From a virus, in IMG/VR virus record IMGVR_UViG_3300036985_005913, positions 1-23,714 of that record: a DNA stretch of 23,714 bases; one strand, written 5' to 3'. This document shows, piece by piece, positions 337 to 16,786 of the stretch. The position numbers and the translations under genes were made by a program. Each line of letters starts with the position of its first letter. Position 1 is the stretch's first letter. The notes beneath the pieces were generated by a model that worked only from the letters and a program-made list of their open reading frames with translations, was not told the DNA's origin and searched no databases.

Positions 337-1137
337 TTATTGTTTATTTAATTTATAAAAACCATTACCATAATTTTCTAACCCTTTAAGATTTTTTATT
401 TCTGATAATCTTAAATGCATATCCATAACTGTTGTTATCCCTCTATCAATAAAAATATCATTTTTAACTTCTGGTGGAGAAATTATACCAAATAAATATT
501 CTTCTTTAATTAATGCTGATAATGATGTGTTTGTTTCGTTGAAACCTTCACCAATATACCTAATCGTTGTTGTATTTACTGATGTTGGTTCACCATCAAT
601 TAAAACAGTTCTAAAAGTTGAATAATCATTAAATACGAAACCATTTATTTGATTATTAGTTGCTAAATTATTATCATTAGGTGTATCAAAAACATATTCT
701 TTTGGTTCACCCATAGATTTAATTCTATCAACACCATCTATTAAAACTCCTTCGTAATTAGTGTAAGTTTCAGTGTTAATATTAAAATCAATTCTATATG
801 GATTTTTTATATCATAAGACCTAACATCTTCTATTCTAGATTCAGTATATGCTGTAATTACAGCATCAACAAAATTATAATAATTATTAATTTTCTTATA
901 TGGGTATCTTAAAACATTCCATAAATTTTGAGGTGTGTTTACTGTTGTAAAATAAGGTTTTGCATTTAGACTTTCAATGAAATCAACATCCGTAAACATA
1001 CCCATATCGTCAATATTTTGTGTTATTAAAATATTGATATAAAAAGTTGAAGCAGTTAAAACACCCCATTTTTTTTGGTCTTTACTACTTCTGTCAATAC
1101 TATTCTCTAATAAAATTTTTCTTTTAATTATTTCCAT
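337..1137 (-). CDS. Unrecognised protein, probable virion/baseplate component (266 aa)
   Basis: This is the last gene of the structural operon, and I do not recognise the family. Its ATG overlaps the stop of the upstream 291-aa gene by one base (TAATG), an arrangement that suggests translational coupling and an equimolar assembly partner. The protein is soluble in appearance: no signal peptide, no hydrophobic membrane stretch, mixed alpha/beta composition, many Asn, Tyr and Thr residues. There is no cysteine cluster and no catalytic motif that I can name. Position after the gp25, gp6 and giant repeat protein genes makes a baseplate, tail-tip or connector role plausible, but this rests only on context. 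Confidence 0.75.
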   Translation of the reverse strand: MEIIKRKILLENSIDRSSKDQKKWGVLTASTFYINILITQNIDDMGMFTDVDFIESLNAKPYFTTVNTPQNLWNVLRYPYKKINNYYNFVDAVITAYTESRIEDVRSYDIKNPYRIDFNINTETYTNYEGVLIDGVDRIKSMGEPKEYVFDTPNDNNLATNNQINGFVFNDYSTFRTVLIDGEPTSVNTTTIRYIGEGFNETNTSLSALIKEEYLFGIISPPEVKNDIFIDRGITTVMDMHLRLSEIKNLKGLENYGNGFYKLNKQ

Positions 1138-2012
1138 TAAATTGCTTTTATTTCATATAATGTAACAGTGCAACTGTTAGAATTATAAGTTACATTGTTA
1201 GACGTTGAAGTATCATCAATTGAATTTCCTTGATAAAGATTGTCAATTTCGTAATAAAAACCAGTTGTTGTTCTAGTTAACTTAAATCTTGTATATAATT
1301 CATGTACTAATTTATCAATCGGTTGTGCCGTGTTTTTTACCATTAAATTTACGTTTTTACCAGTCTTTGAATTTTTAAATGATGCTCTCATATATAAATA
1401 CTTTGGTATGTTATTATTTAAACTATTTTTATAATAATATAAGTGATAACCTTCAGCAAAACCTCTAGGGTTAATTAAAGGGTCTTCAGCAACAAAGTTA
1501 ATTGGTATTTGGACTGCTGGTTTTGGTGTACCAGGAACAGTATTTACTGGTAGTGGATTAGTTGGTGTACCTACTAATAAATCGGAACTATTTAATTCAG
1601 AATAAAGTGTCATATAGTTAACTAACTGTTGAGTTAGGGGATTATCTGAATCGTAAAAACTTAAATTTAAAAAAGTTTTTTTAAATGATTCTTTTCTGTA
1701 TTTTATATCGCTATCAGTAAACCCTATATCACCATAAAACCCCTTATAATCACCATTTGCATTTAATAAGTAAATATCGTAAATAATTTTATCTATTTTA
1801 TCACCTAATAAATTTAATGGTAAGAATCTAACTTTTTCATAATCTACTATTGGGTTAATGGCGTTTTCAACTTCTGTATCAACAAAAACCCTCTCAATTA
1901 ATTCAGAATTATCAATAGTTTGAAAATCCATAAAAAAAGGAACAGTAATTGTAGTAGCTGTAGTGCCAGTTTCTACTGTATTTATATTTATTTTAAATTT
2001 ATTAGCAAACAT
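1137..2012 (-). CDS. Unrecognised protein, probable virion component (291 aa)
   Basis: The start lies inside the 3' end of the upstream 593-aa gene (11-base overlap) and the stop overlaps the next start by one base, so the three genes are tightly coupled. The protein opens with a short polar segment followed by a Thr-rich strand region (TVETGTTATTITVPFFMDF) and a mid-region rich in Pro, Thr and Asn around residues 150-175, which may be a linker between two domains. The C-terminal third has alternating polar and hydrophobic residues typical of beta-rich tail proteins. No signal peptide, membrane segment or enzymatic motif is visible. Function is unknown; a structural role is inferred from operon position. 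Confidence 0.75.
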   Translation of the reverse strand: MFANKFKININTVETGTTATTITVPFFMDFQTIDNSELIERVFVDTEVENAINPIVDYEKVRFLPLNLLGDKIDKIIYDIYLLNANGDYKGFYGDIGFTDSDIKYRKESFKKTFLNLSFYDSDNPLTQQLVNYMTLYSELNSSDLLVGTPTNPLPVNTVPGTPKPAVQIPINFVAEDPLINPRGFAEGYHLYYYKNSLNNNIPKYLYMRASFKNSKTGKNVNLMVKNTAQPIDKLVHELYTRFKLTRTTTGFYYEIDNLYQGNSIDDTSTSNNVTYNSNSCTVTLYEIKAI

Positions 2013-3783
2013 CGTTTTCTATATTTATTGTGAACTTATCTGTTATTCTATCACCAGTTGGGTCGGCTGGGAATTTTCCGTAATATAAACCCCAAATCCC
2101 AAAAGGGTCTTGTCTTTTAAGAGTGAAAGAATAATTTTGGTACATGTAATGTGAATTATTTAAAAAAGGATAGTCTAACGGTTTAACATCGCTTTCATTA
2201 AAACCAATATCTAATAAATCTCTCCAAACTATCCTAGTATCACCTAAATCAACAGCATAATTAGGTATTCCTTCAGTATATTTATCACCAACTTCAATAT
2301 ATGATGAAAAATCCCTTATTTTAATCAAATGATGTGGTTCATAATAATAACCCTCATATCTTGGTCCCATCATTATTGTTTTATTTTCTTGGGTTACTCC
2401 AACTTTTGAAACATAATCCAATGAATTAGGTGTTTCTCTATTTACGGTATTAAAAGAATGTGCAACGGTTGCTAATACTGTTTCATTTAAAGTGTTAATA
2501 TTATATTCTACTAAATCTCCATAAAATTCGTTATTATTGTTAAAATTATTTATTTTAATATCCGTTTCTAGTGGTATATGTGTTGGAAAAATGTCTGAAT
2601 TACCATTATGTATCCTATGTATTGATGGGATATCTCTTAAATAAGGAATTGTGTCACTATTAACCAATCTAGAATCATATGGTGTTTCAATACCAGAAGA
2701 TACTTTAGTAAATAAATTATTACTATCTGTTTTAATTATAGTTAAATAAAATTCACTTAATGGTCTACCTAGATTATCAACTAAATCAGTTACGTCTATA
2801 TCTTCATTAAAAACAAATTGAATTATAGAATCATTAAAAAAGTTTTCACTGAAACCTAATCTATATGTTTCATAATCATCATTCTCAATCATTGGTGATA
2901 TTTTTGTCTTTATTTTCCTAAATTTTCTAAAATAATATTCACATTCTACATTATTTACTAGTTTTTTAAATCTAGATATCGGTGATAACACACCAGTTGA
3001 TGGTTTATCAATTACAAAATAATACTCTTTTAAATCACCATTATCTAATCCAACTCTAACAACCACATGGTCACCATTAAAACCATTAGTACCAGTAATT
3101 CTAACAATATCACCAACATTTAAATTATGTTTACATGATAAACCAATTGCTGTCATGTTTCTAGTTGATACGTTAGCTTCTACTCTATTCGTTATTAAAA
3201 TACCACCTTTTACCATGTTTTGACTTTTATCAACACTAGCTGGATAAGTTATAGTTAACTCCCAATTTTTAACTGGTGTCATTAAATTACCAAAAGGATT
3301 ATTATCTAATAGAAAACTAAAACGTTCTCTCTTTGGCTCCATATCAATATAATTACATAAACCAAATTTTGTAGTGTCTGGGTCAAAAACACCAAACCAA
3401 CCATCCTTTTCTTTTAGATTGTTTTTTATTGATGCATTATAAGTTAAATCAGTTTCATCATTTAACCCGTCTTTAGGGTATGACGTGTCTAAAAAGTCAT
3501 TTGAATTTAACCAAGACCAAGTGTACTTGTTTGAATATAATGGTTCAACTAAATTAAATAAAGGATTAGACATTGTTGTATTCATAGTACCAAGTATTCG
3601 ATACAATTTACATCTTTGTCTTTCTATGTTAAATCTTTCAGCAATATTAACAATCTTGTATATCTCATTTGTTGGTAATAATTTTTGAGAATTTTCAAGA
3701 TTTATTTTTAAATAAGTGTTGTTATTAACATTTTTAACTGATAATTCTTTATTTAATATTTGTTTTGTTCTTTCCGTATTCAT
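2002..3783 (-). CDS. Unrecognised large structural protein (593 aa)
   Basis: This gene follows the 1553-aa gene with a single base between them. The protein is soluble-looking and beta-rich. Around residues 215-262 there is a stretch (HNLNVGDIVRITGTNGFNGD) resembling small barrel-like modules seen in phage tail proteins, where a His-x-Leu is followed by GD and alternating hydrophobics. That is only a pattern impression. The remaining sequence contains many aromatic and Asn residues, no cysteine-rich or metal-binding motif and no membrane helix. Alternatives include a tail-fibre connector or a baseplate hub accessory protein. The tight coupling to both neighbours argues that it acts in the same assembly. 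Confidence 0.75.
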   Translation of the reverse strand: MNTERTKQILNKELSVKNVNNNTYLKINLENSQKLLPTNEIYKIVNIAERFNIERQRCKLYRILGTMNTTMSNPLFNLVEPLYSNKYTWSWLNSNDFLDTSYPKDGLNDETDLTYNASIKNNLKEKDGWFGVFDPDTTKFGLCNYIDMEPKRERFSFLLDNNPFGNLMTPVKNWELTITYPASVDKSQNMVKGGILITNRVEANVSTRNMTAIGLSCKHNLNVGDIVRITGTNGFNGDHVVVRVGLDNGDLKEYYFVIDKPSTGVLSPISRFKKLVNNVECEYYFRKFRKIKTKISPMIENDDYETYRLGFSENFFNDSIIQFVFNEDIDVTDLVDNLGRPLSEFYLTIIKTDSNNLFTKVSSGIETPYDSRLVNSDTIPYLRDIPSIHRIHNGNSDIFPTHIPLETDIKINNFNNNNEFYGDLVEYNINTLNETVLATVAHSFNTVNRETPNSLDYVSKVGVTQENKTIMMGPRYEGYYYEPHHLIKIRDFSSYIEVGDKYTEGIPNYAVDLGDTRIVWRDLLDIGFNESDVKPLDYPFLNNSHYMYQNYSFTLKRQDPFGIWGLYYGKFPADPTGDRITDKFTINIENDVC

Positions 3784-3784
3784 T

Positions 3785-6700
3785 TTATGTCGTTTTAATT
3801 ATTGTACAACCAACACTGTCTGTTATTGTTGTTGTGGCTTTTGGGTTAGGATAAATACTACAGAATGATGTTGTATCAACCACATCGTAAGCACTTCCGT
3901 TAAAATTATTAACATTCAATAATAACGGTGAACTAGAATAAGGACTAATACCACCAGATGCTGTAAAATTAAAATAACATTTAGTTAAATTAGTTAAATC
4001 TGTTGAATTGGTTCTATTAACTTGACCACTTAAAGCTTGTGTAGGCATCGTTATTGTTGGTAATATACCATTTGCTGTACAACCTTTATTATCAGTTATA
4101 GTATAACTTATCACAATTGAATATGTCGAATTACCATTAGGTATACCATTAATAACTGTTTGTGGTATCGTTTGATTAATAACTTGTTGATTTGATGTAA
4201 TTGTTTCAATAAAATATGAATTAACACCATTTGGACCATAACCATTTATTTGATATTTAAACTCATATGGTTTACGTTCTGAATATGTTGGTCCAGCAAC
4301 CTCCCAATGAGTAACATTAAATTTAAATGTTAAAACGTTAGGGTCACATTGTTTACTATTATTTATACCATTAAAATTAACATTTAAAAACGCTGGTGGT
4401 AATCTAATTTCGGTTTCATTTATAACCAACTCATTACTAAAACATAATTCATCAATAGATTTAAATGAAAAACTAACTTCTTCATTATTTAATAAAATAT
4501 TTGGTATTGTTAAGTATACATATGTTGAATTATTTATGTAAGCACTACTTGACATAAAATCTCGATATACCATATTACCATCATCATTTGTTTCATTATT
4601 AACATTCATTGAAATCTTAATACTAGGGATTGGTGGAGTCTGACCAACTGGAATAGGTGCGCCTTCTAATACATAAAAAGGAATCACATATTTATTAGGG
4701 TCACATTGTTTAGCTAAATCAATAATGCTACCTTTACTTGCAACCATTTTAGGGTTTTTACTAGGTATCGTAAAATTTAATACAGATGTAGAACCATAAC
4801 TATCGATAACTGAAGCTATATAATTACCTCTAAATAAAGTATTACCATTAAATGAAATAGAATTATAACCTAATGGTCCAGAAACATTAATTGAATATGG
4901 TGGTGCACCGCCAGTTAAACCTAAATTAAATTCACCATCTTGACTTTCCCAGCATGTAGTACCTTTAAAATTATTTAATATTAAAACTACAGGTGTTGGT
5001 CCATCAATAATTAAATCATATATATTTATGACATCTACACCATCGCTTAGTTCTAATCTATAACCAAAATGTTCGTCTGGTGTTGATAATCCATTTGAAT
5101 CTTTATCAACGCCTAAACCACCAATTGTAAATGGTACATTTATTACTGAATTATTTGAAACTAATGAACCATTACTTTTATATAATTTATAACTCCAAAC
5201 TCCTGTACCACCACCAATACTATCTATTGTAATTTCACCATCATTAATACTGGAAGATGTACACATTTTTTTAACAACACCAGAACCATAAAATGGTGGT
5301 GGACCATCTATATTTACTGTTTGTGTAACAACATTACCGTTAACATCAATAACTTCAATATCATATTGTCCTTGAGGTCCATTAATTGTTATCGGTAAAA
5401 TATCACCAGTAGTTGGATTAATATCTAAAATACCATTAATAACACCATTAGGTCCACTAATTGTATAAGTGAATGGAGCAGTTCCTGAAACAACTGTGAA
5501 AGTTATTGAACCATTTGGATTTTTATTTGATGAAGGTGTTGATATTGATGTAATATTAAACTCTTTTTCAATAACTGGTATACATTTAGTGAAGAACCTT
5601 TGATTTAATTTATCTAACCCCCCTTTTCCTGGTAAAATACCAAAATAAAAATAAAATGAATTATTTGTTTGTGAATAACTAGAATCATTATTTGGTTTAA
5701 AACCTCTAAATTCTAAATAATCATCACCATTAGAATTACTAGATGTAAAATTATAATCTGGTTCATTTTCTATATTAAAGTCTGTTGAAAAAGGTGAACT
5801 ATAATTAAATGTTGTGGTACCATTAACTTTGTTTTTGTTTAAATAATAAAACACATCTCTAAACCATTTACCACCGTTTTCATCTATTTCATTTTTACCA
5901 ATTACACCATCTGGGTAAATTAATGTTCCGTTATTATCATAACTAATTTCATCTAAATCAACACCCATCTCACATATGTGTCTAATATTTAAAACTTGTC
6001 TAGAGTCTGAATGAATACCTAAGCAATTAATTTCAAAAAATAACCCTTTAATACTTCCCTCTAACCCTACTTGACCAGTTGTTTCAGTTTTTTTATCATC
6101 AGTTATTTCTTGAGTATCAGGTGGTAATTTATATGATGTAGGTATTAATAAAGGTTGTATTTTAGGTATACCTTGCCAGTCACAATCAAAAACAGAACCT
6201 AAACAAACTATATCTGTAGCAAATAGTTTATTAGATGCATCATGTTTTGTTGCAGCATAATATAACTCTTCACTTATTTTTTTACCATCTTTAATTATGT
6301 TTATTTTTTTAATTAAACCTTCACGAGCTGGAATATAATATGATTTATTTTGTGCGTTAACGTAATTAGGAATTTTACCATATTTATGATTACCTTCTGG
6401 AAAACAAGTATCTAATAAATAATTTGAATGACAATCATTATCACCTTTATTATTGTTATCACCATCAACACCGCCTTGTGAAAAGAATTCTGGACTACAA
6501 TCGTATTCACAGAATAATTCTATACCTTTACTTCTTTTTTTGTATTTCACTAAAAAACCAAATAAACTACCATTAATCCAATCATTATAAAAATCAAATT
6601 GGAATAAATTAAGACTCTTTGCCATTTCAAATGCAACACAGTTATCCAACCCAGCTAAGTCACCAAACGTTTTTGGGTGACCCCAATCATCACCAGGATA

Positions 6701-8446
6701 ATAAGTTGGTGGTGGTTCTGGTGAATTTGGTGTATTTGGTGGGTCAAAAGCTTTAAAACCATCTGAACTAGCAAGACAACCAGGTGCGTAATACGTCTTA
6801 TCACCATTAGGACATTCAACATATAAACATTTAACATAATCAATAGGTGTTAATTTTTTAACTAATTCACACGCAAAATCAAAAATAGCAAATGGTCTAA
6901 ATTTAAAAATTTTAATATTTCTAGCAGCCCAACATAATTTATCAAACAACCATCTTAACGCCCCTATAATCACATTAACAACTCTTACAATAATATTTAT
7001 TATTGGTATAAGAATAAAATTCATAATAAAAATAATAAAACCAACAATTTTTATTATTAAACAAATAATAAAAAAAATAGGTGACATACTTGTATTGAGT
7101 TTATTATATGGAAATGGGTTTTTATCACCATCACACGCATCAACATCTTTTATACCAGTAAACGCTCTAGTACTCTCACCAGAACTTGTTTGAAATCTTG
7201 GGATGAAATTACTAACAGTGTAAATTTTATTCCAATATAAATTCCTAAAACTAGTTTTTTTAGTTGTTTCATCAAATTTATAATCTATTTCTGTTGTGTT
7301 TGTCGGATTATTTGGTACTAAATATTTAGCTCTTGTTCTAAGCCTACCTTCACCACCAGTGTTATCCATACCGATTTTGAATCTAACATTTGCTCTGGTC
7401 GGTATACCAATATTTGGGTCGTCTGATGGGATTAAATCCCCATTTTCATCTGTTATTACGTAATCTAAGTTCATTGGAATTTGATAAGCCCATGTACCAT
7501 CTTCATCAATCAATCTACCACCTTCAACATCAAATTGTTCAACACCACCATCTATAGTTTCTCTAATCATTTCTATAGTACCTTCACTAGCAATTTGGGA
7601 ACATAATTTACCTAAATCTTTTCTAGGTCTACATCTTTTATTTATACTATTTTTGTCTTGGTCACCAAATATACTACCCATAAACATAGCGGAAGGGATT
7701 ACGTTGTAATTCATGTCGATATCGGCTCTACTAATACCTATTTCACATATTTCACCTTCACCCCAAAAAGGTTGTACATTTACAGAATAATTTGTTGATT
7801 TCACTTGGACTAATTTATCTAAATTAGTACCACCTTTGAATTTAGTAGGACTATCAAAAAATTTAACTGGTGTACCTTGACTGATTAAATCATAAGGTCT
7901 TTGCGATACGATACCAACATCTGAAATATCAGCGTCAATATGTATTGTATGTGTACCTAATGGCACACCGAAAATCATGAAATCACCAGCATTATTGGTT
8001 GTTGTAGTAAATTTATAATATTTATTATATACATGAAGTAGTTCTTCATTATCTAATATTTCTCTCTTATTTGGAAAAGAACCGATAGGTGTAAAACAAT
8101 CATTATTTGTTTCACTATTTTTAGGTAAAAGGTTGTATCTTATACTATCACTATCTTTATCAGTAACAATACTATAAGGGTATAAACCTTTGATTAGTGA
8201 ATTATTTTTATCTTCATCATCAATAGGTAAAAACACACTAACTCTAGCATTTGGTAAACCAAAACCTCCATTAATAACTACCCTACCAACCACTACCCCA
8301 TAATCCGAACAAAAAGTTCTATAAGCATCCTCTTGTGTAATTTTCATAGAAAGTACTTCAATGAAATCAAATTCTTGGTCTAACTTAACTTTTACATATT
8401 TATCTGAACCATTTGGTGTTGTTCTTATTCTTATTGTTTCTGACAT
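3785..8446 (-). CDS. Giant structural protein with regulatory-like domain, membrane segment and SprB-like repeats (1553 aa)
   Basis: The layout has three parts. Residues about 50-175 look like a carboxypeptidase-regulatory/transthyretin-like fold: VVVGRVVINGGFGLPNARVS, then a gap, then NNAGDFMIFGVPLGTHTIHI. Residues about 453-500 form a long very hydrophobic stretch of two probable membrane helices (IIFIMNFILIPIINIIV), flanked by Cys, Lys and Arg. From about 960 to the end come serial modules with signatures such as GSITFTVVSGTAPFTYTISG, GQYDIEVIDVNG, GGAPPYSIN and SVGCT. These resemble the SprB repeat of Bacteroidota cell-surface adhesins. The gene sits in the baseplate operon between a small membrane protein and the 593-aa protein. 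A tail-tip, fibre or membrane-contacting virion protein fits; the PKD/Ig-like fold is an alternative reading of the repeats. There is no signal peptide at the N terminus. Function is inferred. Confidence 0.8.
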   Translation of the reverse strand: MSETIRIRTTPNGSDKYVKVKLDQEFDFIEVLSMKITQEDAYRTFCSDYGVVVGRVVINGGFGLPNARVSVFLPIDDEDKNNSLIKGLYPYSIVTDKDSDSIRYNLLPKNSETNNDCFTPIGSFPNKREILDNEELLHVYNKYYKFTTTTNNAGDFMIFGVPLGTHTIHIDADISDVGIVSQRPYDLISQGTPVKFFDSPTKFKGGTNLDKLVQVKSTNYSVNVQPFWGEGEICEIGISRADIDMNYNVIPSAMFMGSIFGDQDKNSINKRCRPRKDLGKLCSQIASEGTIEMIRETIDGGVEQFDVEGGRLIDEDGTWAYQIPMNLDYVITDENGDLIPSDDPNIGIPTRANVRFKIGMDNTGGEGRLRTRAKYLVPNNPTNTTEIDYKFDETTKKTSFRNLYWNKIYTVSNFIPRFQTSSGESTRAFTGIKDVDACDGDKNPFPYNKLNTSMSPIFFIICLIIKIVGFIIFIMNFILIPIINIIVRVVNVIIGALRWLFDKLCWAARNIKIFKFRPFAIFDFACELVKKLTPIDYVKCLYVECPNGDKTYYAPGCLASSDGFKAFDPPNTPNSPEPPPTYYPGDDWGHPKTFGDLAGLDNCVAFEMAKSLNLFQFDFYNDWINGSLFGFLVKYKKRSKGIELFCEYDCSPEFFSQGGVDGDNNNKGDNDCHSNYLLDTCFPEGNHKYGKIPNYVNAQNKSYYIPAREGLIKKINIIKDGKKISEELYYAATKHDASNKLFATDIVCLGSVFDCDWQGIPKIQPLLIPTSYKLPPDTQEITDDKKTETTGQVGLEGSIKGLFFEINCLGIHSDSRQVLNIRHICEMGVDLDEISYDNNGTLIYPDGVIGKNEIDENGGKWFRDVFYYLNKNKVNGTTTFNYSSPFSTDFNIENEPDYNFTSSNSNGDDYLEFRGFKPNNDSSYSQTNNSFYFYFGILPGKGGLDKLNQRFFTKCIPVIEKEFNITSISTPSSNKNPNGSITFTVVSGTAPFTYTISGPNGVINGILDINPTTGDILPITINGPQGQYDIEVIDVNGNVVTQTVNIDGPPPFYGSGVVKKMCTSSSINDGEITIDSIGGGTGVWSYKLYKSNGSLVSNNSVINVPFTIGGLGVDKDSNGLSTPDEHFGYRLELSDGVDVINIYDLIIDGPTPVVLILNNFKGTTCWESQDGEFNLGLTGGAPPYSINVSGPLGYNSISFNGNTLFRGNYIASVIDSYGSTSVLNFTIPSKNPKMVASKGSIIDLAKQCDPNKYVIPFYVLEGAPIPVGQTPPIPSIKISMNVNNETNDDGNMVYRDFMSSSAYINNSTYVYLTIPNILLNNEEVSFSFKSIDELCFSNELVINETEIRLPPAFLNVNFNGINNSKQCDPNVLTFKFNVTHWEVAGPTYSERKPYEFKYQINGYGPNGVNSYFIETITSNQQVINQTIPQTVINGIPNGNSTYSIVISYTITDNKGCTANGILPTITMPTQALSGQVNRTNSTDLTNLTKCYFNFTASGGISPYSSSPLLLNVNNFNGSAYDVVDTTSFCSIYPNPKATTTITDSVGCTIIKTT

Positions 8447-8454
8447 ATTTACGT

Positions 8455-8802
8455 CTAATATTTTTTTGTTATATCTTCAACATCTAACATAACGACATCA
8501 TCTTCTGTTAAATTATCAAAGTCATCTTCATCGTCTTCATCGTAATCATTATTAAATTTATGATTGGTGAACCTTTTAATTATGTTCACCATATTTACTT
8601 CTTTTGTTAAAACAATAGTGTTAAACATAAAGATTACAATAGCTACATTTATTAACGGTAATAATAAAATTCCTACAATAAATCCTGTCATTTTTAATGT
8701 ATAATTACCAATTAATTTTATTTTTTCTTTATTATTAGTTTTAAAAAACCTTACATTTTCCGATGATTCAAAACTATTTCCAGATTTACAATTACAACCC
8801 AT
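8455..8802 (-). CDS. Small membrane protein, MGCNCK start (115 aa)
   Basis: The protein starts MGCNCKSGNSF, is basic for about 30 residues, then carries a hydrophobic region at about residues 33-68 (GFIVGILLLPLINVAIVIFM). That region is long enough for one or two membrane helices. The tail is very acidic (DYDEDDEDDFDNLTEDD). It ends in TAG, whereas the stops I checked nearby are TAA, so TAG is still read as stop here. The leader is A-rich (AAATAAT before ATG). It lies between the gp6-like gene and the giant protein gene, which also has membrane helices, so the two may act together at the host membrane or during assembly. No family is recognised; holin-like function is possible but unsupported by context. 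Confidence 0.75.
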   Translation of the reverse strand: MGCNCKSGNSFESSENVRFFKTNNKEKIKLIGNYTLKMTGFIVGILLLPLINVAIVIFMFNTIVLTKEVNMVNIIKRFTNHKFNNDYDEDDEDDFDNLTEDDVVMLDVEDITKKY

Positions 8803-8869: not shown

Positions 8870-10684
8870 TTATTGTCTTGCTCGAATCATAATATCTTTA
8901 GTTGGATACTTAATTTCGAACATTGTTGTTGATTCACCAAATAAGGTCATATCTGAAATGTCTATTTGTCTAGTATCTTCTTCGATATATTGTTGTGAAA
9001 TTTCATTTACACTGTATTTACCACCACCAACTTTATTATAAATTCTAATCTCTAAAATATTTAAAACACCACCAACATTATTTATTGTTTCTATAAGAGG
9101 TGAAAGATAAATATTTTCACCCATTTCGTATTTATTTACATCAAAATATTTTTTAATTTCACTAATAACTTGCGTCATAACTTGTGATTGAGTTACTTTT
9201 TTATCTATAAATAAATCAACTTCAATTGATAAATTGATAATTCTACCATCAGCTATTTGAATATAATCATTTAGCATTCTATAATCAGCTAAATAATTAC
9301 TAATATTTTCTTTTAGTGTGGTTGTTGATTGATTTGTCAGTGAACCATTTGAATCTAAACTTAAAACATAAATTTTAATTTTATTTTGTTCTTCAAAAAC
9401 ACCATTTCTAAACGGTGAACCGAATTTGCCAGGAATCTGAGCAATCTTTGTTTGATAGTCTTTTATCGTTACTGCTCTATTTTGTGATGCAAAATTATAT
9501 TTAACCATATTTCTAATTTCTTCTATACTAGGTACATTTTTACCACCAATAGCTGGAAATAGATTATTTACCTTTAAGGATTTTTTAACATTTTGGTTAA
9601 TAGTTGAATTACTACCATTAACAGTCATATCAATAATACCTAACCCTTTAATTACATTAGGACCTAAATTAGAATCACTACCACCACCAACTTTATATTT
9701 TATAAACATTGTAGTGTTAGGTGTAGGAATAACACCTAGAGACATATTATTTATAAAATTACCTATTTGTTTAACTAATAATGGATTTGTGTCAAAATCA
9801 CAAAGACTATTTATGTCTTGTGTTCCAGCACCAAAAGTTATTTTAGTGAAACCTAAATCAGTATATTCTCTTATAAATCTTTTTGAAACACTTATCCATT
9901 TACCTGGTTTTACACCTGCGCTATCACTAGAACGTGTATTATCTTCAATGAAAACTTTATCTTCAGCTAAAGCATCAACTTCATACCATTTGTTTTCTTT
10001 ATTTAAAAATTCAGTGAATGTTGGAGTTGTTAAATAGTTTGTGCCTGGTAGTGTTATTATTGAGTCAATATCTAAAACGTCATTATCTGGTAAAATAACC
10101 TCTAAAAATGGTCTAGAATCACTAGTATTTATAACTCTTTTTAAAATCTTACTATAACCATTTGTAACTATCTCTCTTTTAGTTATTGAGTAATTAATCA
10201 ACGTACCGTTACCATTGAAGTTAGGTATAATTAAACGATTTGGAATACCACTAACAGAAAAAGGGTTAGAAAAATCAACATCGTTATTCAATTCAAAAAT
10301 TTTACCAGCACCAGATACTTGTGAACCAGCTCTAATTATTGGAGCATATGAAATATCAAAAGTATCACCAAAAACTGGTAGTGTTACAGTTAAATCAACA
10401 ATCGTTGCACTAGCTCTTTTTCCTGGTATTTTTAAACCAAGAGTTCTAGCTATAGAAAGAATTGATTTTCTTTCTTGTGCGTAGTCTATTTGTGTTTCAG
10501 CAAACATTCTATCAGTATTAAAAGATAACATATCCCCTACAGCAGCATTTAACTCTAAAAGCATCATACCTACCGATGCGTCATTAAAATCACCGAAAAT
10601 ATCTGGGTAATATTGTTTAACATAATTAACTAAATCAGTTCTTATATTTGCGAAATCTCTTGATGTATAATTTACATTTCCCAT
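8870..10684 (-). CDS. 6: gp6-like baseplate wedge protein (604 aa)
   Basis: This is a T4 gp6/baseplate J-type protein, part of the wedge ring that holds the contractile-tail baseplate together. It begins NYTSRDFANIRTDLVNYVKQ, followed by GDFNDASVGMMLLELNAAVG and NTDRMFAETQ. That is the usual opening of this family, in which an N-terminal helical region is followed by a long beta-rich middle. Residues about 390-445 contain the typical RNMVKYNFASQNRAVTIKDY and a nearby IAQIPGKFG segment, matching the conserved ATDY-like region of baseplate J proteins. Length is close to that of T4 gp6 (660 aa). It lies three bases downstream of the gp25-like gene, the order expected in myovirus baseplate operons. 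Confidence 0.88.
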   Translation of the reverse strand: MGNVNYTSRDFANIRTDLVNYVKQYYPDIFGDFNDASVGMMLLELNAAVGDMLSFNTDRMFAETQIDYAQERKSILSIARTLGLKIPGKRASATIVDLTVTLPVFGDTFDISYAPIIRAGSQVSGAGKIFELNNDVDFSNPFSVSGIPNRLIIPNFNGNGTLINYSITKREIVTNGYSKILKRVINTSDSRPFLEVILPDNDVLDIDSIITLPGTNYLTTPTFTEFLNKENKWYEVDALAEDKVFIEDNTRSSDSAGVKPGKWISVSKRFIREYTDLGFTKITFGAGTQDINSLCDFDTNPLLVKQIGNFINNMSLGVIPTPNTTMFIKYKVGGGSDSNLGPNVIKGLGIIDMTVNGSNSTINQNVKKSLKVNNLFPAIGGKNVPSIEEIRNMVKYNFASQNRAVTIKDYQTKIAQIPGKFGSPFRNGVFEEQNKIKIYVLSLDSNGSLTNQSTTTLKENISNYLADYRMLNDYIQIADGRIINLSIEVDLFIDKKVTQSQVMTQVISEIKKYFDVNKYEMGENIYLSPLIETINNVGGVLNILEIRIYNKVGGGKYSVNEISQQYIEEDTRQIDISDMTLFGESTTMFEIKYPTKDIMIRARQ

Positions 10685-10687
10685 ATT

Positions 10688-11068
10688 TTAAATTTTTACT
10701 ACTACTATATCTGATGAAGAAAAAACATCATCACTTATTGTGTAACTTATAGTTACAACGGCTGCGTATTCACTCTCTGGTGATGCAGAAATTATTATAT
10801 CGTCTAACTTTAAATTAGGTAAGAATTTTTTAACTACAGTCCTAATTTCATCTTTAATACCTTCTTCAGTCAATATATCATTTGGTTCAAATATAAATCT
10901 TAACAAATCAGTACCAAAATCTGGATTGTATAATCTTTGACCTCTTCTAGTAAGTATTAAATGTAATAAATCAGCTTTTATTGCTTGTTTATCGTTTTCA
11001 GTTAAATCTAAAAAAAACCCTTTTGCGCTGTCTTTGAAGGGATAATTTATATTGATATATTTTGACAT
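10688..11068 (-). CDS. 25: gp25-like baseplate wedge protein (126 aa)
   Basis: This is a short GPW/gp25 family protein, a conserved component of contractile-tail baseplate wedges that interacts with gp6 and links to the sheath. Family hallmarks are visible: an N-terminal NYPF and GFFLDLTENDKQAIKADLLH, then HLILTRRGQRLYNPDFGTDL with the invariant-looking RxGxRxxxPxFGxxL signature, then a C-terminal helix and strands. Length (126 aa) is normal for the family. It is the first gene of the structural operon, downstream of a terminator, so a promoter must lie in about 11069-11129. There the minus strand reads TAGTATTATATTTATC followed by an A-rich leader; the promoter boxes cannot be fixed by eye. 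Confidence 0.9.
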   Translation of the reverse strand: MSKYININYPFKDSAKGFFLDLTENDKQAIKADLLHLILTRRGQRLYNPDFGTDLLRFIFEPNDILTEEGIKDEIRTVVKKFLPNLKLDDIIISASPESEYAAVVTISYTISDDVFSSSDIVVVKI

Positions 11069-11174: not shown

Positions 11175-11789
11175 TTAAGCTGAACACCCAAAACACTCAA
11201 ATTGACTGTCTTTTGGTTTCTCAACATTTTGTGTAATCTGGTTAGATGCTAATTTAGAATTTGCTTCTAATTTTGATTTAGTTCTAGTATAATAAACACC
11301 AGTTTTTAAACCACCTTTCCATGCATACATAAGTGCACTTGCAATCTTACCATACTTAGCATCGGAATGATACAAATTCAAAGATTGAGATTGGTCAACA
11401 AATTTGTTTCTGATTATCGCTAAATCTAATAACACTCTTTGAGGGATTTCCCAAACATCTTTGTATCTGTATCTAATATCTTCTGGAATTTCAACAATAT
11501 TTTGAACACTACCTTGATTGACAATCAATTTATCGATAAGCTCTGGTGTCCATAAATTTAATTCAATTAATTCATTTACCAAATATTTGTTAACAACTAA
11601 GAATTCTCCTTGTCCAACTCTTCTTGTAAATAAATTAGCAGTTGCTGGTTCAAATGATTCAAATACACTTAATAAGATTGCAGAATTATGACTAACGCAA
11701 CCGTTTTTTGTTATGTAATGATTGTGTACTGGAACATTTATATCCCATGTTGGCGATACTTCACCTTTACTTATTTTTTTTATTTTCAT
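11175..11789 (-). CDS. nrdA: Ribonucleotide reductase large subunit, C-terminal piece with IntC2
   Basis: Residues 1-35 are the C-terminal half of a split intein ending GCVSHN; residues 36-204 are the last 169 aa of NrdA. The extein begins SAILL and, fused to PTAS of the middle piece, restores the MPTASSAI phosphate loop. It then runs through ESFEP and TRRVGQGEFLVVNKYLV, which match class Ia large subunits. The radical-transfer tyrosine pair is Y166/Y167 (GVYYTRT). The C terminus ends CFGC (C199, C202), the swinging dithiol that re-reduces the active site. The start is inside the 3' end of the Vsr-like endonuclease gene (23-base overlap). The piece is inactive alone; it needs trans-splicing to the middle piece. 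Confidence 0.93.
   Translation of the reverse strand: MKIKKISKGEVSPTWDINVPVHNHYITKNGCVSHNSAILLSVFESFEPATANLFTRRVGQGEFLVVNKYLVNELIELNLWTPELIDKLIVNQGSVQNIVEIPEDIRYRYKDVWEIPQRVLLDLAIIRNKFVDQSQSLNLYHSDAKYGKIASALMYAWKGGLKTGVYYTRTKSKLEANSKLASNQITQNVEKPKDSQFECFGCSA
11685..11789 (-). other. Split intein 2, C-terminal half (IntC2)
   Basis: 35 aa. The typical intein C-terminal blocks are visible: DINVPVHNHYI (block F) and the closing NGCVSHN, with Asn as the cyclising residue and penultimate His. The next residue, Ser, is the +1 nucleophile. Its partner is the N-terminal half at 13104-13454. Together they make a mini-intein of 152 aa without an endonuclease domain. Confidence 0.9.
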
Positions 11790-13047
11790 TGTATATTATA
11801 TTAATTATTTTATAAATTGCACTAATTTTATCCTCAATTGACCATATAACGTGATACTTAAAACCGTTATCAATTGCTAACTCTTCTTTTAAAATATCAT
11901 TTTTTCTAATTTCTAAACCATTTTTCTTAGTTTTTTTAAAATTATTTTTATCTCTAACTAAATATAACGTTTCCCAATTTAATAAATCGCTATCTTCTGT
12001 TATACTAAAATGTGGGTGAAATTTCTCACCGTGATATTCAAATATTAATTTTAAACTAGGTATAGTTAAATCATAATAATAATATTTTTTATCATTAGAA
12101 TTAAATAATGAAAACTCATTATTACCTTTAACACCTATTTTAAATTCTAAACCACTATCTTTAAAATAATCTATAACTGGGGTAAATACTTTTAAACTAG
12201 CTTTGGACGCTGACCTAAATTTAACACCTTTTTTATCGTAAATTTCTACTATTTTATTTTTAGCTTCTTCTTCAGATAATCCCTTGTTAATCCAAAACTT
12301 AACTGTTGATGTATTTAGATTTTCATGATGAAATTTTTTTCTCATATTTTCAGCTTCATCATCGGAAAAACCTTTATTAACCCAATAGTTTTTTGTAAAT
12401 ATACTAGTTTCTTTTTTAACATCCAAATAATTTAACCATTTTTTTTTACCTTCTTCTAACCCATACAAATTAATATATTTTTCTAAAGTATGTTTTGATG
12501 TAGTTTTAAACTCTTCAAATTTTTTAGTACCTTCAATTTCACCATGTCGTTTAATAAATCCTTCTAAAGAAGTTGCTTTAGATTTTTTGTACTCATTTAT
12601 TTTACTATTGATTTCTGAATCTGAAGTATACCCTTTATTAATCCAATATTCTTTTTTATATGGTGATAACTTATGTGTTTTATTAATTTTTTCTTTATAT
12701 TTAGTTAACCCATTTACTTCACCAAATTTTAATTTATAATATTCTTCATTAACTGAAAATTTGTTAAGTTTTTTATAATTTAAAAATTCTTCATACCTTT
12801 TTAAACAAAAATTATTACCTATTTCATTAATATCATTCACACATTTTGTTAACTGATAATCAAATTTTTTAATTAATTCAAAACAACCATTGAAAATTTT
12901 TAAATCAAAGTTAATTGATTCGTTAACACCTAAAAGATTCTTTAAATAATTAAAATCTTCTATTTGTATTTTTTTTAATTCACCTAATTTATTAATTGTA
13001 GTTAAAAAACGTTTAGTTTTAATTTCTTTACCTTTATAAAATACCAT
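11767..13047 (-). CDS. Free-standing Vsr/PD-(D/E)XK-like homing endonuclease in NrdA break 2 (426 aa)
   Basis: This gene lies between the N- and C-terminal halves of split intein 2. The C-terminal domain (about 318-402) has YYDLTIPSLKLIFEYHGEKF with D326 and E337, followed by D384/K387 and GFKYHVIWS. That is the layout of Vsr-type/PD-(D/E)XK nucleases. Upstream are three copies of a short module, YWINKGYTSDSE, YWVNKGFSDDEA and FWINKGLSEEEA (at about 134, 221 and 251), probably DNA-binding repeats as in other phage mobile endonucleases. Vsr-like endonucleases in the breaks of split-intein genes are known from marine metagenomes ('fractured genes'). It would cut an uninterrupted nrdA or intein allele and so spread the break. 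Its start codon is within an RNA hairpin, and its last 23 bases overlap the IntC2 gene. Confidence 0.8.
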   Translation of the reverse strand: MVFYKGKEIKTKRFLTTINKLGELKKIQIEDFNYLKNLLGVNESINFDLKIFNGCFELIKKFDYQLTKCVNDINEIGNNFCLKRYEEFLNYKKLNKFSVNEEYYKLKFGEVNGLTKYKEKINKTHKLSPYKKEYWINKGYTSDSEINSKINEYKKSKATSLEGFIKRHGEIEGTKKFEEFKTTSKHTLEKYINLYGLEEGKKKWLNYLDVKKETSIFTKNYWVNKGFSDDEAENMRKKFHHENLNTSTVKFWINKGLSEEEAKNKIVEIYDKKGVKFRSASKASLKVFTPVIDYFKDSGLEFKIGVKGNNEFSLFNSNDKKYYYYDLTIPSLKLIFEYHGEKFHPHFSITEDSDLLNWETLYLVRDKNNFKKTKKNGLEIRKNDILKEELAIDNGFKYHVIWSIEDKISAIYKIINIIYNENKKNK

Positions 13048-13093
13048 ACATCTATTTTTATAATAAATATATGGTATTTATGAAAAAGGTAAA
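13027..13093 (-). promoter_or_regulatory. RNA hairpin enclosing the endonuclease start codon
   Basis: Arms at 13027-13047 and 13071-13093 form nine pairs, a 3/5-base internal loop and nine more pairs, with a 23-base loop. In the minus-strand transcript the AUG of the endonuclease (13045-13047) is the end of the stem at the loop. The closing pairs use AUGGUAUUU with AAAUACCAU and the outer ones AAAGGUAAA with UUUACCUUU. Such a structure would hide the start from ribosomes, as hairpins do for several T4 homing endonuclease genes. Function is inferred from structure alone. Confidence 0.65.
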
Positions 13094-13100
13094 TGCTAAC

Positions 13101-14036
13101 CTATTTTTTTTCAAAAATATTAATAATATCGTCACCATCAATCAAATCCTCAACTTTAACCCAAACCTCTTCATTATTTCTATTAACTAGGAATTGGTGA
13201 TTACCAGTTGGTTCGAATATAGTCCCATCTTCCATCTCAATTTTATATGTTTCAGCGTGACCATTATAATGAATACCCTCTGTTTTGATATATTCACCAT
13301 CTTTAGTTAATACTTCTATAGGGTTTTCTAAAATAAACCATTGTTTATTATTAGTTTTTTCTATTTCTTCCCAATTAATATTATTCCTTTCTAATAATTC
13401 TTTATAACTAATATCACCATCTTTTGTTATGATTTCAATTTCTTTCTTGTGGCAACTAGCTGTTGGCATCATTCCTAATAAAAGACTATTTAACATTGGA
13501 ATTGGTTGCCCTTCTGGAAGTGGTGACCAACCTTCAATATAAGTTTCACCTTTTGAATATGGACTATCTTTCCATGATGGGTAGTTTTCACCTTTTTCAA
13601 TAGCTAACCTCATTGATTCAATAACAGCAGATTTATACATTGTTTCAGTGATATCTTTGTTCCATTGTTTAGCTTCTTCACTTTCATAAGAAATTTTTCT
13701 TTTAGCAAAGAAGTCAGCCATACCAGCAACACCAATAGCCAATGCTCTTTGGTCTTCACCAGCTGCTTTACTCCAATCGTCAGACCATTTGTTTTTATCA
13801 ACAACTTTGTTCAACGCTTTAACCAAAATCCTAGTTGTTTTAGCAATTGATTCTAATGAATCTTGTTCAGCCAAGTTGATTGATGCTAACGTACATTGTG
13901 GTGTATAACTAGGTCTTGAAGCTTGAAAAATCTCACAATTATGAACTAATATATTATTAGCATAAAAATTGTTAGTATTCTCAACTTGAATGTCATACAC
14001 ATCCATAGTTTTTTCTAATTTATTAATTTTAATCAT
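13101..14036 (-). CDS. nrdA: Ribonucleotide reductase large subunit, middle piece: IntC1 + NrdA + IntN2
   Basis: One 311-aa polypeptide carries three parts. Residues 1-33 are the C-terminal half of split intein 1 (FYANNILVHN). Residues 34-194 are 161 aa of NrdA, beginning CEIFQASRPSYTPQCTLASI, where E35 matches the catalytic Glu next to the radical cysteine and C48 the second cysteine of the active-site disulfide pair. This part ends GMMPTAS. Residues 195-311 are the N-terminal half of split intein 2. The protein must be spliced at both ends: to the N-terminal piece through intein 1 and to the C-terminal piece through intein 2. The A-rich leader (AATAAAAAATAAATAAT) and 15-base spacing after the GIY-YIG gene suggest the transcript is continuous. 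Confidence 0.93.
   Translation of the reverse strand: MIKINKLEKTMDVYDIQVENTNNFYANNILVHNCEIFQASRPSYTPQCTLASINLAEQDSLESIAKTTRILVKALNKVVDKNKWSDDWSKAAGEDQRALAIGVAGMADFFAKRKISYESEEAKQWNKDITETMYKSAVIESMRLAIEKGENYPSWKDSPYSKGETYIEGWSPLPEGQPIPMLNSLLLGMMPTASCHKKEIEIITKDGDISYKELLERNNINWEEIEKTNNKQWFILENPIEVLTKDGEYIKTEGIHYNGHAETYKIEMEDGTIFEPTGNHQFLVNRNNEEVWVKVEDLIDGDDIINIFEKK
13104..13454 (-). other. Split intein 2, N-terminal half (IntN2)
   Basis: 117 aa. It starts with the nucleophile Cys (C195 of the middle piece) but block A is unusual: CHKKEIEIITKDGD instead of the common CLxxDT type. Block B is present as FEPTGNHQFLV, with the T-x-x-H (T277, H280). The half ends in a VKVEDLIDGDDI-like stretch, the usual end of block B-side folds. 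It is inserted between PTAS and Ser of NrdA. Confidence 0.88.
13938..14036 (-). other. Split intein 1, C-terminal half (IntC1)
   Basis: 33 aa, starting at its own ATG: VYDIQVEN, NNFYANNIL and final VHN, a standard intein C-terminal half. The following Cys (C34) is the +1 nucleophile and becomes the residue right after the radical cysteine of NrdA. The partner is at 15314-15622; together they make 136 aa with no endonuclease domain. Confidence 0.92.
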
Positions 14037-14051
14037 ATTATTTATTTTTTA

Positions 14052-15251
14052 TTAATTATTTATATATTCAAATTTAAAACCTTTATAAGTTTTATTTCTA
14101 CCTTTACATACTGCTAATACAGATGTTATTTTACCATCTATATATTCAGCAGCTGATTTTAATGAATCAAACTCGATAATATCACCGTTATTATCAATCC
14201 TTCTCACTTTTCGTTGATTGTTACCTTTTTTAATATCAAATGTGTATTCTTCATTCTCCCATCTAAAAATATCAATAAAAGTGTTGTTATTTTTACATTT
14301 TCTTCTGATTACAGTTGGGTTTAAACCGATTTGTTCACTAGCTTCAAATACATTATTGAAAACTAATTCTATATTACTATCAATATCTTTTTTGTAATAA
14401 ACTAATTTAGAAATTCTAATAATACCATTTTTAGTTGTTTTAAACCCTCTGGGTGAATCATCAGTAGGTTTTTTATAATCTGACCGTTTAGTTTTACTAT
14501 AGACTAATTCACTATCATTGTATCTAAAATAATAACCTTTATATGTACCACCATATTTAATACATCGGTATATTAATGATTTAGTTTTAAATTCATATTT
14601 ATTAAGTATATCATTAATATTTAAAATATCTATTTCTTCTAATGTTTTAGAATCAATCATAACTATTAAACGTTTAACTCTAGATTTAAAATTTTCTTTC
14701 ATATTATCTATACGCTCTTTAGTAAATTTCTTACCTTTATTCCAATGAACTCCATTAATTTTAGCTAAATAAGATGGATTAATTTCTATTGGTCTACCAT
14801 ACATAGGGTTTTTACTACCTTTAGTATTTTCACTATGTTTTTCCCTTATTTCTTCTTTTTTAGGATTATTATTAAAAGTATCACCACCAGTTCCACCTAT
14901 GACAATATTAGTTAATAAACCACCTTCAGTAAATCGACCATAATAACCAATTAATTCTTTCTCAACTTTAAAAGCTTCATCTTCATTATCTGTTTCAAAT
15001 ATAACCTTAAAGTTAGGTTTGAAACCTAATCCAATTAATTTTTTAATCGTATTAGTTTTATGTGGGTTTATTTTACTACTGCGATTATCTTTTAATGCAT
15101 CAATATAATGTGTTAAATGTCGTTTTCTATTATTTTTAGCGTTATAATCACCTTTACCTATATAAAAAGGTTTGTAATTTATTTCAGAATAATTATTACT
15201 ATAATCACCCATTACTCTATCATCTAATAAAATGTAAATATAATATCTCAT
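14052..15251 (-). CDS. Free-standing GIY-YIG homing endonuclease in NrdA break 1 (399 aa)
   Basis: A GIY-YIG nuclease domain occupies about residues 1-120. YYIYILLD and FYIGKG form the name motif (the second copy at 29-34), with R42/R44 in RKRHLTHY, E97 (VEKELIGYYG) as probable metal-binding Glu, and N115 (LLTNI). After it come a NUMOD3-like element (NPMYGRP, 148-154, and HWNKGKKF) and two or three NUMOD1/IENR1-type DNA-binding units: KRLIVMID to YKGYYFRY at about 193-244, RISKLVYY to about 332, and RKVRRIDNNG to YKGFKFEY at about 348-396. The gene stands between the two halves of split intein 1. It would spread this break by cutting alleles that lack it. A large stem-loop sits just upstream of its start. 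Confidence 0.92.
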   Translation of the reverse strand: MRYYIYILLDDRVMGDYSNNYSEINYKPFYIGKGDYNAKNNRKRHLTHYIDALKDNRSSKINPHKTNTIKKLIGLGFKPNFKVIFETDNEDEAFKVEKELIGYYGRFTEGGLLTNIVIGGTGGDTFNNNPKKEEIREKHSENTKGSKNPMYGRPIEINPSYLAKINGVHWNKGKKFTKERIDNMKENFKSRVKRLIVMIDSKTLEEIDILNINDILNKYEFKTKSLIYRCIKYGGTYKGYYFRYNDSELVYSKTKRSDYKKPTDDSPRGFKTTKNGIIRISKLVYYKKDIDSNIELVFNNVFEASEQIGLNPTVIRRKCKNNNTFIDIFRWENEEYTFDIKKGNNQRKVRRIDNNGDIIEFDSLKSAAEYIDGKITSVLAVCKGRNKTYKGFKFEYINN

Positions 15252-15257
15252 ATTAAT

Positions 15258-15302
15258 AAATATACAGTACGTAGTGTAAAGTACACTACGTACTGTATAT
15301 TT
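15258..15302 (-). promoter_or_regulatory. Perfect 21-bp stem-loop upstream of the GIY-YIG gene
   Basis: Arms 15258-15278 and 15282-15302 are perfectly complementary around a three-base loop; the core reads ACAGTACGTAGTGTA. It lies between the nrdA N-piece stop (15311) and the endonuclease ATG (15249-15251), ending seven bases before the ATG, within the ribosome footprint. No T run follows it in the direction of transcription, so it is a poor terminator and a better candidate for a translational silencer, an RNA-processing site or a recognition site for DNA cleavage or recombination. The function is not established. Confidence 0.7.
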
Positions 15303-15310
15303 TTTTTTTA

Positions 15311-16786
15311 TTAATTAAAATTTGTATCTAACTCATCATCCTCTAGTAAATCACAAGCCATTACATAACCTCTATTTTTAGTGAATATCCTATGGTCTGG
15401 TGTACAAATAATCCTAACATTTTTTTCTTCATCAATAATTTCAAGTACTTCAGCATTCTCTTTAGTTTTTATAGCACCTAATATTGGTTGAAAAGTATTA
15501 TCTTGACTTAAAACTAAAATATTTTTATGTTTTTCATAAAGTTTAACTACTTCTTCCATAGTTATTTTTTCAATACCACCGTTTTCATTAATGATTGTTA
15601 TAATTGAATCACCATTTAAACAACACAAATTAGATTGTTTGATAATACCGATGTTTCTTTGCATGTTGTGTTTGTTCGCATTATCTTTGAACATAACATA
15701 TGGTTTACCACTTTCTACTTGTGATTTGATAAGTGAATCAAAGATATCTTTAGGGTTAACTTTTTTACCCAATCCTAATTCAACTGCTTTGTAATATTCA
15801 GCTTCAAATGCTTCTCCATGTAACTCATAAAGTGGTGTTAACCCAGCTTTTTTGATATCATTCGGACAGAACAAATACCAATCTTCATTGTTTTGTAGTT
15901 TTTCCATGAATAAATCATTGATAACCACAGCAGTAAATAAATCTCTAGTTCTTAATTGCTCATCACCAATTGGCAAAGTTAAATCTAAGAAATCAAAGAT
16001 ATCTCTGTGCCACACTGATAAGTATAATGCACAACTTCCAGAACGAGAACCTTGTTTATAGAATCTCATTTTAGCTTGTACCATATCAGCTAATCTTACA
16101 ACTCCACCAGCGTTACCTTTGAACGATTCTACGATACTATCCTTGCTTCTAAGAGGGTCAATTAATAATCCGATACCAGAACCTTCTTTAGATGCTGAAG
16201 CTATCTTAGTAAGCGTATTTTCGATTCCGTCAAATGAATCATCTTCTAAGTGTGTAAGATTACAACTAATCATACCATTTCTTTCTGGCACACCAGCGTT
16301 TGTATATGTAGGTGTAGCGAAGTTACCTTTTTTAGAAGTAATCTCATTCATTAATTCTTTATAATCTTCTTCATTATCATCATGTAAATAACCAGCAACA
16401 CGTTTATACATACAAGATGGTAATTCAGTTGGTGATTTCTTTTCATCTTTCAATGAATATTTTGAAAGGAAAGTTGTTGCGGCAAAGAAATCATAAGTTA
16501 AATCAACTGGTTGTAATTCTTTACCAATTAATTTAGATTGTCTGGACAATAAAATTCGACCACCCAATAAAGAGTAGTCAGAATGTAATATGATTTTATC
16601 AGCAGCTTTAAACGCTATAATTTCATCGATTTCGGTTGTTGTAATATTATCATTTACCAAAGGTATCACCTCTTGGAATAAAATATCGGAATCAACCTTT
16701 AACCCTTTAGCTTGTGTTTTGATTCTGGTTAGTATTTTATTTGGTGTAAACGCTTGTGATGTTTTATCTCTTTTTATTATTCTCAT
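15311..16786 (-). CDS. nrdA: Ribonucleotide reductase large subunit, N-terminal piece with IntN1
   Basis: Residues 1-388 are the N-terminal half of a class I NrdA; 389-491 are the N-terminal half of split intein 1. An ATP-cone (allosteric activity domain) occupies about 1-90 (MRIIKRDKTSQAFTPNKILT). C175 in NGMISCNLTHL matches the first redox cysteine of the active site, and DDSFDGI follows in the specificity-site region. The extein ends QSNLC, and C388 is the expected thiyl-radical cysteine. The intein begins at C389 (CLNGDSIITI) directly after it. After both splicing events the enzyme totals 718 aa, normal for the family. It starts 12 bases after the nrdB stop, with leader AAAATAAAAACAAT. 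NrdA reduces ribonucleoside diphosphates with NrdB. Confidence 0.95.
   Translation of the reverse strand: MRIIKRDKTSQAFTPNKILTRIKTQAKGLKVDSDILFQEVIPLVNDNITTTEIDEIIAFKAADKIILHSDYSLLGGRILLSRQSKLIGKELQPVDLTYDFFAATTFLSKYSLKDEKKSPTELPSCMYKRVAGYLHDDNEEDYKELMNEITSKKGNFATPTYTNAGVPERNGMISCNLTHLEDDSFDGIENTLTKIASASKEGSGIGLLIDPLRSKDSIVESFKGNAGGVVRLADMVQAKMRFYKQGSRSGSCALYLSVWHRDIFDFLDLTLPIGDEQLRTRDLFTAVVINDLFMEKLQNNEDWYLFCPNDIKKAGLTPLYELHGEAFEAEYYKAVELGLGKKVNPKDIFDSLIKSQVESGKPYVMFKDNANKHNMQRNIGIIKQSNLCCLNGDSIITIINENGGIEKITMEEVVKLYEKHKNILVLSQDNTFQPILGAIKTKENAEVLEIIDEEKNVRIICTPDHRIFTKNRGYVMACDLLEDDELDTNFN
15314..15622 (-). other. Split intein 1, N-terminal half (IntN1)
   Basis: 103 aa, residues 389-491 of the N-terminal piece. 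Block A is CLNGDSIITI with nucleophile Cys; block B is IICTPDHRIF with T-x-x-H (T462, H465), followed by NRGYVMACDLLEDDEL. The stop comes soon after, so the half is natural, not truncated by a frameshift. The pattern resembles the NrdA-type split inteins known from metagenomes. Confidence 0.93.

Follow-up and report, generated by a model that had tools for sequence, protein, structure and literature searches.

What is a segment as hydrophobic as a membrane helix doing in the middle of a very large protein encoded among phage baseplate genes? The question is raised by a gene for a protein of 1553 amino acids, hereafter the giant protein, in a virus known from IMG/VR record IMGVR_UViG_3300036985_005913 (23,714 bases; the window analysed here is the whole record). 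An earlier reading of this DNA, hereafter the original prediction, held that one polypeptide of a baseplate operon joins a regulatory-like beta domain, a hydrophobic middle and SprB-type modules, and this combination proved to be correct, with regulatory-like domains in the plural. That reading missed three features that are new here: the hydrophobic part is modelled as a single helix inserted in a second beta sandwich, this helix carries a polar stripe, and a small partner gene lies beside the giant gene. The giant protein and its partner suggest a two-part device that engages the host membrane, perhaps during DNA delivery.

A giant protein in a baseplate operon

The genes that define the locus are the following, in order of transcription.

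10688..11068, minus strand: gp25-like baseplate wedge protein (GPW_gp25, E = 1.2e-12; PHROG 261)
8870..10684, minus strand: gp6-like baseplate wedge protein (PHROG 219, E = 2.5e-27; Baseplate_J)
8455..8802, minus strand: small partner protein, 115 amino acids, directly upstream of the giant gene (MGCNCK N-terminus, hydrophobic stretch, acidic tract)
3785..8446, minus strand: giant protein, 1553 amino acids, one open frame (homologues of 944-2640 amino acids)

Synteny ties the giant gene strictly to gp25 and gp6 over hundreds of contigs. The order gp25, gp6, small protein, giant protein, and then proteins of 593, 291 and 266 amino acids is kept in nearly all contigs that are long enough. A 155-kb record of the same group encodes a tail sheath protein and hub-like and tape-measure-like proteins upstream, and the tail is therefore contractile. 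We would place the giant protein in the virion from gene order only.

Architecture of the giant protein

Residues 1-640 were modelled with AlphaFold2 from a deep alignment of 147 diverse sequences, giving a mean predicted local distance difference test score (pLDDT) of 91.3. This model replaced an earlier one made from 39 similar sequences, in which the N-terminus had a pLDDT of 27-50 and gave no useful fold match. The regions of the protein, all on the minus strand, are as follows.

7700..8314, minus strand: residues 45-249, first predicted transthyretin/carboxypeptidase-regulatory-like sandwich, with an internal insertion (pLDDT mostly >90, fold match)
7082..7699, minus strand: residues 250-455, first part of the second predicted transthyretin-like sandwich (fold matches over 251-635 and 253-634, Z about 5.5)
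6917..7081, minus strand: residues 456-510, one long hydrophobic helix bearing a polar stripe (both models, hydrophobicity, conservation)
6605..6916, minus strand: residues 511-614, variable remainder of the insertion up to its return to the sandwich, cysteines conserved (insertion-length comparison)
6542..6604, minus strand: residues 615-635, FDFYNDW motif, where the chain re-enters the second sandwich (model strands 615-634; fold matches end at 630-635)
5582..6541, minus strand: residues 636-955, conserved cysteine-rich region (conserved columns; homologues of 944 and 954 amino acids end here)
3788..5581, minus strand: residues 956-1553, SprB-like and further Ig-like modules (SprB profile score)

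The best fold matches for residues 29-249 have Z scores of 8.3-8.6 with root-mean-square deviations (rmsd) of 1.9-2.4 Å over 80-84 residues, and a Z of about 8 could by itself reflect a common arrangement. The transthyretin-like domain of carboxypeptidase N is matched within residues 29-248 (Z 8.3, rmsd 1.9 Å, 80 residues), and many members of the transthyretin/carboxypeptidase-regulatory class appear in the same fold list. A second transthyretin-like match (Z about 5.5) falls within residues 250-635 and draws on strands from both sides of the hydrophobic segment. The regulatory-like beta domain of the original prediction is present, as the carboxypeptidase N match attests, and where a single domain had been proposed the model indicates that there are probably two such sandwiches. 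The likeness is weak at the level of sequence: CarboxypepD_reg (PF13620) matches residues 146-172 with 14.5 bits (E = 0.047), below the Pfam cut-off of 32.3, and is found in 22 of 30 homologues scanned, with a best E of 1.6e-4. No phage baseplate protein is a clear match in the fold lists of solved structures, which does not mean that no such relative exists, and the profile of the giant protein has no sequence match to any solved structure in the PDB set.

The FDFYNDW motif at residues 615-635 is nearly invariant, and beyond residue 955 the protein is variable. At locus L064 (1010-5668) the giant gene is spread over three open reading frames (ORFs), through either sequencing errors or real disruption.

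A single hydrophobic helix with a polar stripe

Averaged over 19 residues, the Kyte-Doolittle hydrophobicity of the middle segment peaks at 3.15. Both models draw residues 456-510 as one unbroken helix of 55 residues, about 80 Å long, with pLDDT >90 in the deep model. The original prediction had placed two adjacent hydrophobic helices here; the hydrophobicity stands, and the two helices become one. A two-helix hairpin is accordingly rejected for the models, a single-chain prediction that still leaves room for a hairpin in lipid. According to the model and the fold matches, the helix is inserted into the second sandwich, with strands on both sides. The spacing between P446 and D622 is 99-279 residues in proteins that have the helix vs 46-72 in those that lack it.

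A hydrophobic segment occurs in 126 of the 128 non-redundant homologues of a first set, with peaks of 2.0-3.5, and in 181 of the 192 loci of a larger set that was purposely enriched for relatives of the two segment-less exceptions. Its hydrophobicity far exceeds that of other structural proteins of the same phages. Among 177 background ORFs of at least 200 amino acids from two related phages, only one other kind of ORF has a similar peak, and that kind is hydrophobic in multiple stretches.

Two residues of the helix are nearly invariant. Asn476 is present in all 136 helix-bearing rows of the alignment and Cys462 in 133 of them. Polar residues cluster at positions 466, 470, 473, 476, 477, 484, 488, 491 and 495, with a helical period of 98-100 degrees per residue, at a power that none of 5000 column shuffles reached. 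The helix is thus long and very hydrophobic, and its polar residues are confined to a narrow stripe. This combination fits a pore-lining or bundled membrane helix, and also a helix that is mostly buried.

A small hydrophobic partner and the loci without the helix

The small protein encoded between gp6 and the giant gene has a hydrophobic stretch of about 35 residues (approximately 32-65) with proline 49 at its center, an acidic tract, and a tail reading EDDV..DVEDIT. In an alignment of 158 partners that were selected for the MxCxCK motif, Cys3, Cys5 and Lys6 at the N-terminus are present in 158/158 and Pro49 in 149/158, and many have the acidic tract. At this position, 126 of 128 loci have a hydrophobic small ORF. 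TraS, EVC2_like and holin T matched the small protein weakly (E = 6.7e-4 to 0.014); these matches were set aside, as they lie below the curated cut-offs and nine small proteins gave no convincing PHROG match. Some 700 bases upstream of the giant gene in loci L279, L393 and L333, an unrelated gene, endonuclease-like by eye, separates the giant gene from the position of the partner.

In the larger set, both hydrophobic segments are found at 179 loci, neither at 10, only that of the giant protein at 2, and only that of the partner at 1. The lone partner-only locus reflects a spurious ORF, and the real partner there has no strong hydrophobic stretch; at the two giant-only loci an unrelated gene is inserted between. 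The partners of the 11 helix-less loci, which come from the rumen, lack a strong hydrophobic stretch or are absent altogether, as the small gene is in three of them. We prefer this 192-locus table to a classification by motif, which missed CxxCK forms and undercounts partners. Although the raw table is striking, a claim of statistical co-variation was dropped, as on the tree the helix-less rows need only two changes, and a single origin (1-2 events) is still possible. The helix-less loci are best regarded as a suggestive natural experiment, not a statistical result, and either loss or gain could have produced them.

SprB-like modules at the C-terminus

The serial modules that were said to resemble the repeats of gliding adhesin SprB were borne out. 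The SprB profile (PF13573) scores 24.7 bits (E = 1.8e-5) on the whole giant protein, slightly below the Pfam cut-off of 28, and 30.3 bits (E = 3.3e-7), above that cut-off, on the C-terminal 599 amino acids alone; the same 599 amino acids reversed give nothing. At an E of up to 0.1, 25 of the 30 homologues that were scanned match the profile, with a best E of 4.1e-14. Forward C-terminal regions contain a SprB-like motif 125 times vs 10 times for reversed ones. The best stretch in the giant protein is this one:

5447..5521, minus strand: residues 976-1000, best SprB stretch (Pfam PF13573)

It is possible that these modules bind the host surface. The further proposal that the protein mimics the host's SprB did not fare as well. 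Two short natural homologues, of 944 and 954 amino acids, lack the SprB-bearing region entirely. Furthermore, no C-terminal family of type 9 secretion or gliding adhesins is among the NCBIfam matches of 30 members (E up to 0.1), in which a diverged domain could escape. We therefore reject mimicry of SprB as the main role, given that the modules form an optional tail and two homologues end near residue 950.

Possible roles of the helix and its partner

Our leading reading is that the giant protein is a structural protein of the baseplate region of contractile-tailed phages and that its helix is a membrane-engaging finger. We favor it tentatively, at somewhat less than an even chance. The idea of the original prediction, that the protein may insert into the host envelope as the DNA enters, keeps its place at the head of the candidate roles on the grounds of one long, polar-striped helix and a small partner that has no strong hydrophobic stretch, or is absent, at the loci without the helix. 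A membrane action of the helix is suggested by its hydrophobicity.

Baseplates are built with six-fold symmetry, from which it is reasonable to speculate that a virion carries several copies of the giant protein. These copies would hold the helix packed away until adsorption and contraction release it. The released helices might then bundle in the host membrane, with their hydrophobic faces to the lipid and the asparagine-rich stripe inward, and the bundle might open or line a passage, much as proposed for the hydrophobic L-loops of phi29 gp9. The small partner could cover the helix until release or enter the membrane together with it. Contact with the cell surface is probably made by the SprB-like arm, which is dispensable in some relatives. 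A more specific version, which we consider unlikely, is a two-gene penetration module in which a six-fold helix bundle forms a polar-lined passage, the MxCxCK protein releases or seeds the bundle, and the two genes are lost or kept as a unit.

Several observations weigh against a membrane-engaging finger. The chain on either side of the helix is part of the same sandwich, and the segment that leads back is not hydrophobic, which makes it hard to draw a simple, single pass through a membrane. Entry would call for a finger-like insertion of the helix or for prior refolding. It is mainly this shared sandwich, which weakens the idea of a membrane-spanning segment, that limits our confidence. In addition, eleven phages do without the helix, and the hydrophobic stretch is shorter in one group from the rumen. 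That helix and hydrophobic partner are absent together has no statistical weight because it represents only one or two evolutionary events, and co-expression of the partner is just as consistent with assembly at a membrane.

It is conceivable, if somewhat unlikely, that the helix never meets lipid, and instead packs with other helices, including those of the partner, as a structural core of the baseplate, with the stripe lining a cavity or facing solvent. The return of both helix ends to the same sandwich fits a fixed internal element, the lack of a strongly hydrophobic partner where there is no helix agrees with this reading, and a polar stripe with helical period is also typical of a mostly buried helix. 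However, the helix in those 126 homologues and the partner are as hydrophobic as membrane segments, and about half of the insertion varies in sequence and length, which is unusual for a tight core. Alternatively, the giant protein and its partner might tether the baseplate during its assembly to the infected cell's inner membrane, with the partner staying behind and not entering the virion. Such a helix would be expected to target a phage protein to the membrane, the partner resembles an ordinary small membrane protein, and membrane-held contractile systems do exist, such as the thylakoid-anchored contractile injection system (CIS; PMC8894136) and CisA (PMC12237407). We regard this assembly platform as quite improbable, as lysis requires phages to come off the membrane, relatives that lack the helix assemble nonetheless, and the Flavobacterium and Microcystis phages of related gene order that we read encode no such platform. 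Only a very small chance is left for a late-made protein that resides in the infected cell's membrane, displays its SprB-like arm outside, perhaps against superinfection, and is no part of the virion. In its favor is that a single protein unites SprB-like adhesin modules with a segment of membrane type, but the strict linkage to gp25 and gp6 speaks against it, and so does the N-terminus, which does not resemble a signal peptide (the first hydrophobic stretch is at residue 449).

How the DNA of contractile phages passes the inner membrane is still open, and the usual candidate is the tape measure protein. If the membrane-engaging reading is correct, a baseplate-operon protein and a further small gene serve membrane engagement in a widespread, uncultured group of phages. 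The existence of natural relatives without the helix, together with both genes and the predicted helix, makes a direct test possible. An architecture and a name are now given to a protein that lies outside all phage families searched.

Family, phage group and probable host

At least 586 relatives of the giant protein were confirmed in IMG/VR (one scan with alignment), and the phage group that they define is large, uncultured, and abundant in freshwater and rumen data. Three different members used as queries found no match among 50,697 phage records. The protein has no PHROG match and is covered by none of the phage families searched, and the viral structure library holds one relative, which is metagenome-derived. 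The combination of SprB repeat, phage and baseplate was not found reported in the literature, and titles and abstracts on SprB with phage genome and tail mention nothing of such a protein.

Five loci lie on genome contigs, all labelled as metagenome-assembled genomes or single cells, and those that were read keep the same gene order. For these, the likeliest explanation is that contigs of phages were placed in the same bins as cells. Locus L084 (QCKH01000004.1), labelled as a Prochlorococcus single-cell genome, carries the same tail operon; phage DNA probably accompanied the cell through sorting or entered its assembly.

NrdB is nearest to that of Tenacibaculum phages and uncultured huge phages (44-46% identity), and some relatives are on rumen contigs labelled Bacteroidales. 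Because of these two observations and the SprB modules, we infer that the group probably infects Bacteroidota.

Other genes of the window

The operon continues downstream of the giant gene with three genes of unassigned function.

2002..3783, minus strand: 593-amino-acid protein (synteny, always next downstream of the giant gene)
1137..2012, minus strand: 291-amino-acid protein (synteny, same run as the giant gene)
337..1137, minus strand: 266-amino-acid protein (synteny, same run as the giant gene)

These proteins (window 337-3783) are conserved alongside the giant protein and have no convincing family in Pfam or PHROG; the 291-amino-acid protein matched nothing there, the 266-amino-acid protein nothing convincing, and the phage records gave no match to the 593-amino-acid protein.

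Further upstream are ribonucleotide reductase, DnaB-like helicase and UvsX-like genes, of which the reductase and helicase were named from sequence features and synteny, not by searching the window proteins against families. As read by eye in the list of ORFs, the large subunit of the reductase (11175-16786) is divided over three ORFs whose ends resemble intein halves, with a GIY-YIG-like ORF and a second endonuclease-like ORF between them. This may be a fractured gene whose products can be joined by split inteins. The DnaB-like ORF (17776-20301, 841 amino acids) has an apparent intein; relatives elsewhere are mostly 465-480 amino acids long. In two related phages (L163, 10693-11850; L157, 5403-6641), an ORF of 386-413 amino acids with many hydrophobic stretches is located some 20-30 kb downstream of the giant gene.

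Comparison with known systems

The position shortly after gp6 is that of gp7 in T4-type phages, and proteins of 1265-1336 amino acids in Flavobacterium phage immuto and Microcystis phage Mel-JY01 are likewise large and similarly placed. Unlike the giant protein, they have no hydrophobic segment. Homology to gp7 was set aside after a profile comparison with these two proteins gave nothing; T4 gp7 itself was outside that comparison.

Among adhesins, SprB is alike in that the C-terminal modules of the giant protein belong to its repeat family (PF13573). The giant protein differs in having few modules, no adhesin C-terminal family in NCBIfam, no hydrophobic N-terminal signal, and a gene in a baseplate operon.

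Contractile systems that are held by membranes offer two further parallels. In the thylakoid-anchored CIS, Cis12 and Cis13 similarly place a membrane segment on baseplate-side or fibre proteins of a contractile machine (PMC8894136). However, the membrane helix of that system lies at the C-terminus of a fibre protein and serves to hold the machine within its own cell (PMC8894136). CisA is a membrane protein required for firing of a CIS in Streptomyces (PMC12237407). Its size is small to medium and its gene, like that of the partner, adjoins baseplate genes; it is linked in function to the contractile machine (PMC12237407), but it has one membrane segment, a C-terminal domain, and no MxCxCK motif.

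The closest analogy to the proposed finger is perhaps gp9 of phi29. Its hydrophobic loops lie in the knob tube and emerge as a helix barrel that is hydrophobic on the outside (PMC6542822). Like helix 456-510, which in the model is a hydrophobic insertion in a beta-rich protein, the L-loop of gp9 is hydrophobic, mostly helical and set into a tail-tip protein rich in beta structure, and it is proposed to bundle and breach the membrane (PMC6542822). The fold searches with the giant protein did not list gp9, which leaves homology possible. The two differ in that phi29 is a short-tailed phage of Gram-positive hosts, whereas the giant protein belongs to a contractile-tailed phage, its helix measures about 55 residues, and it has SprB-like arms as well as a partner gene.

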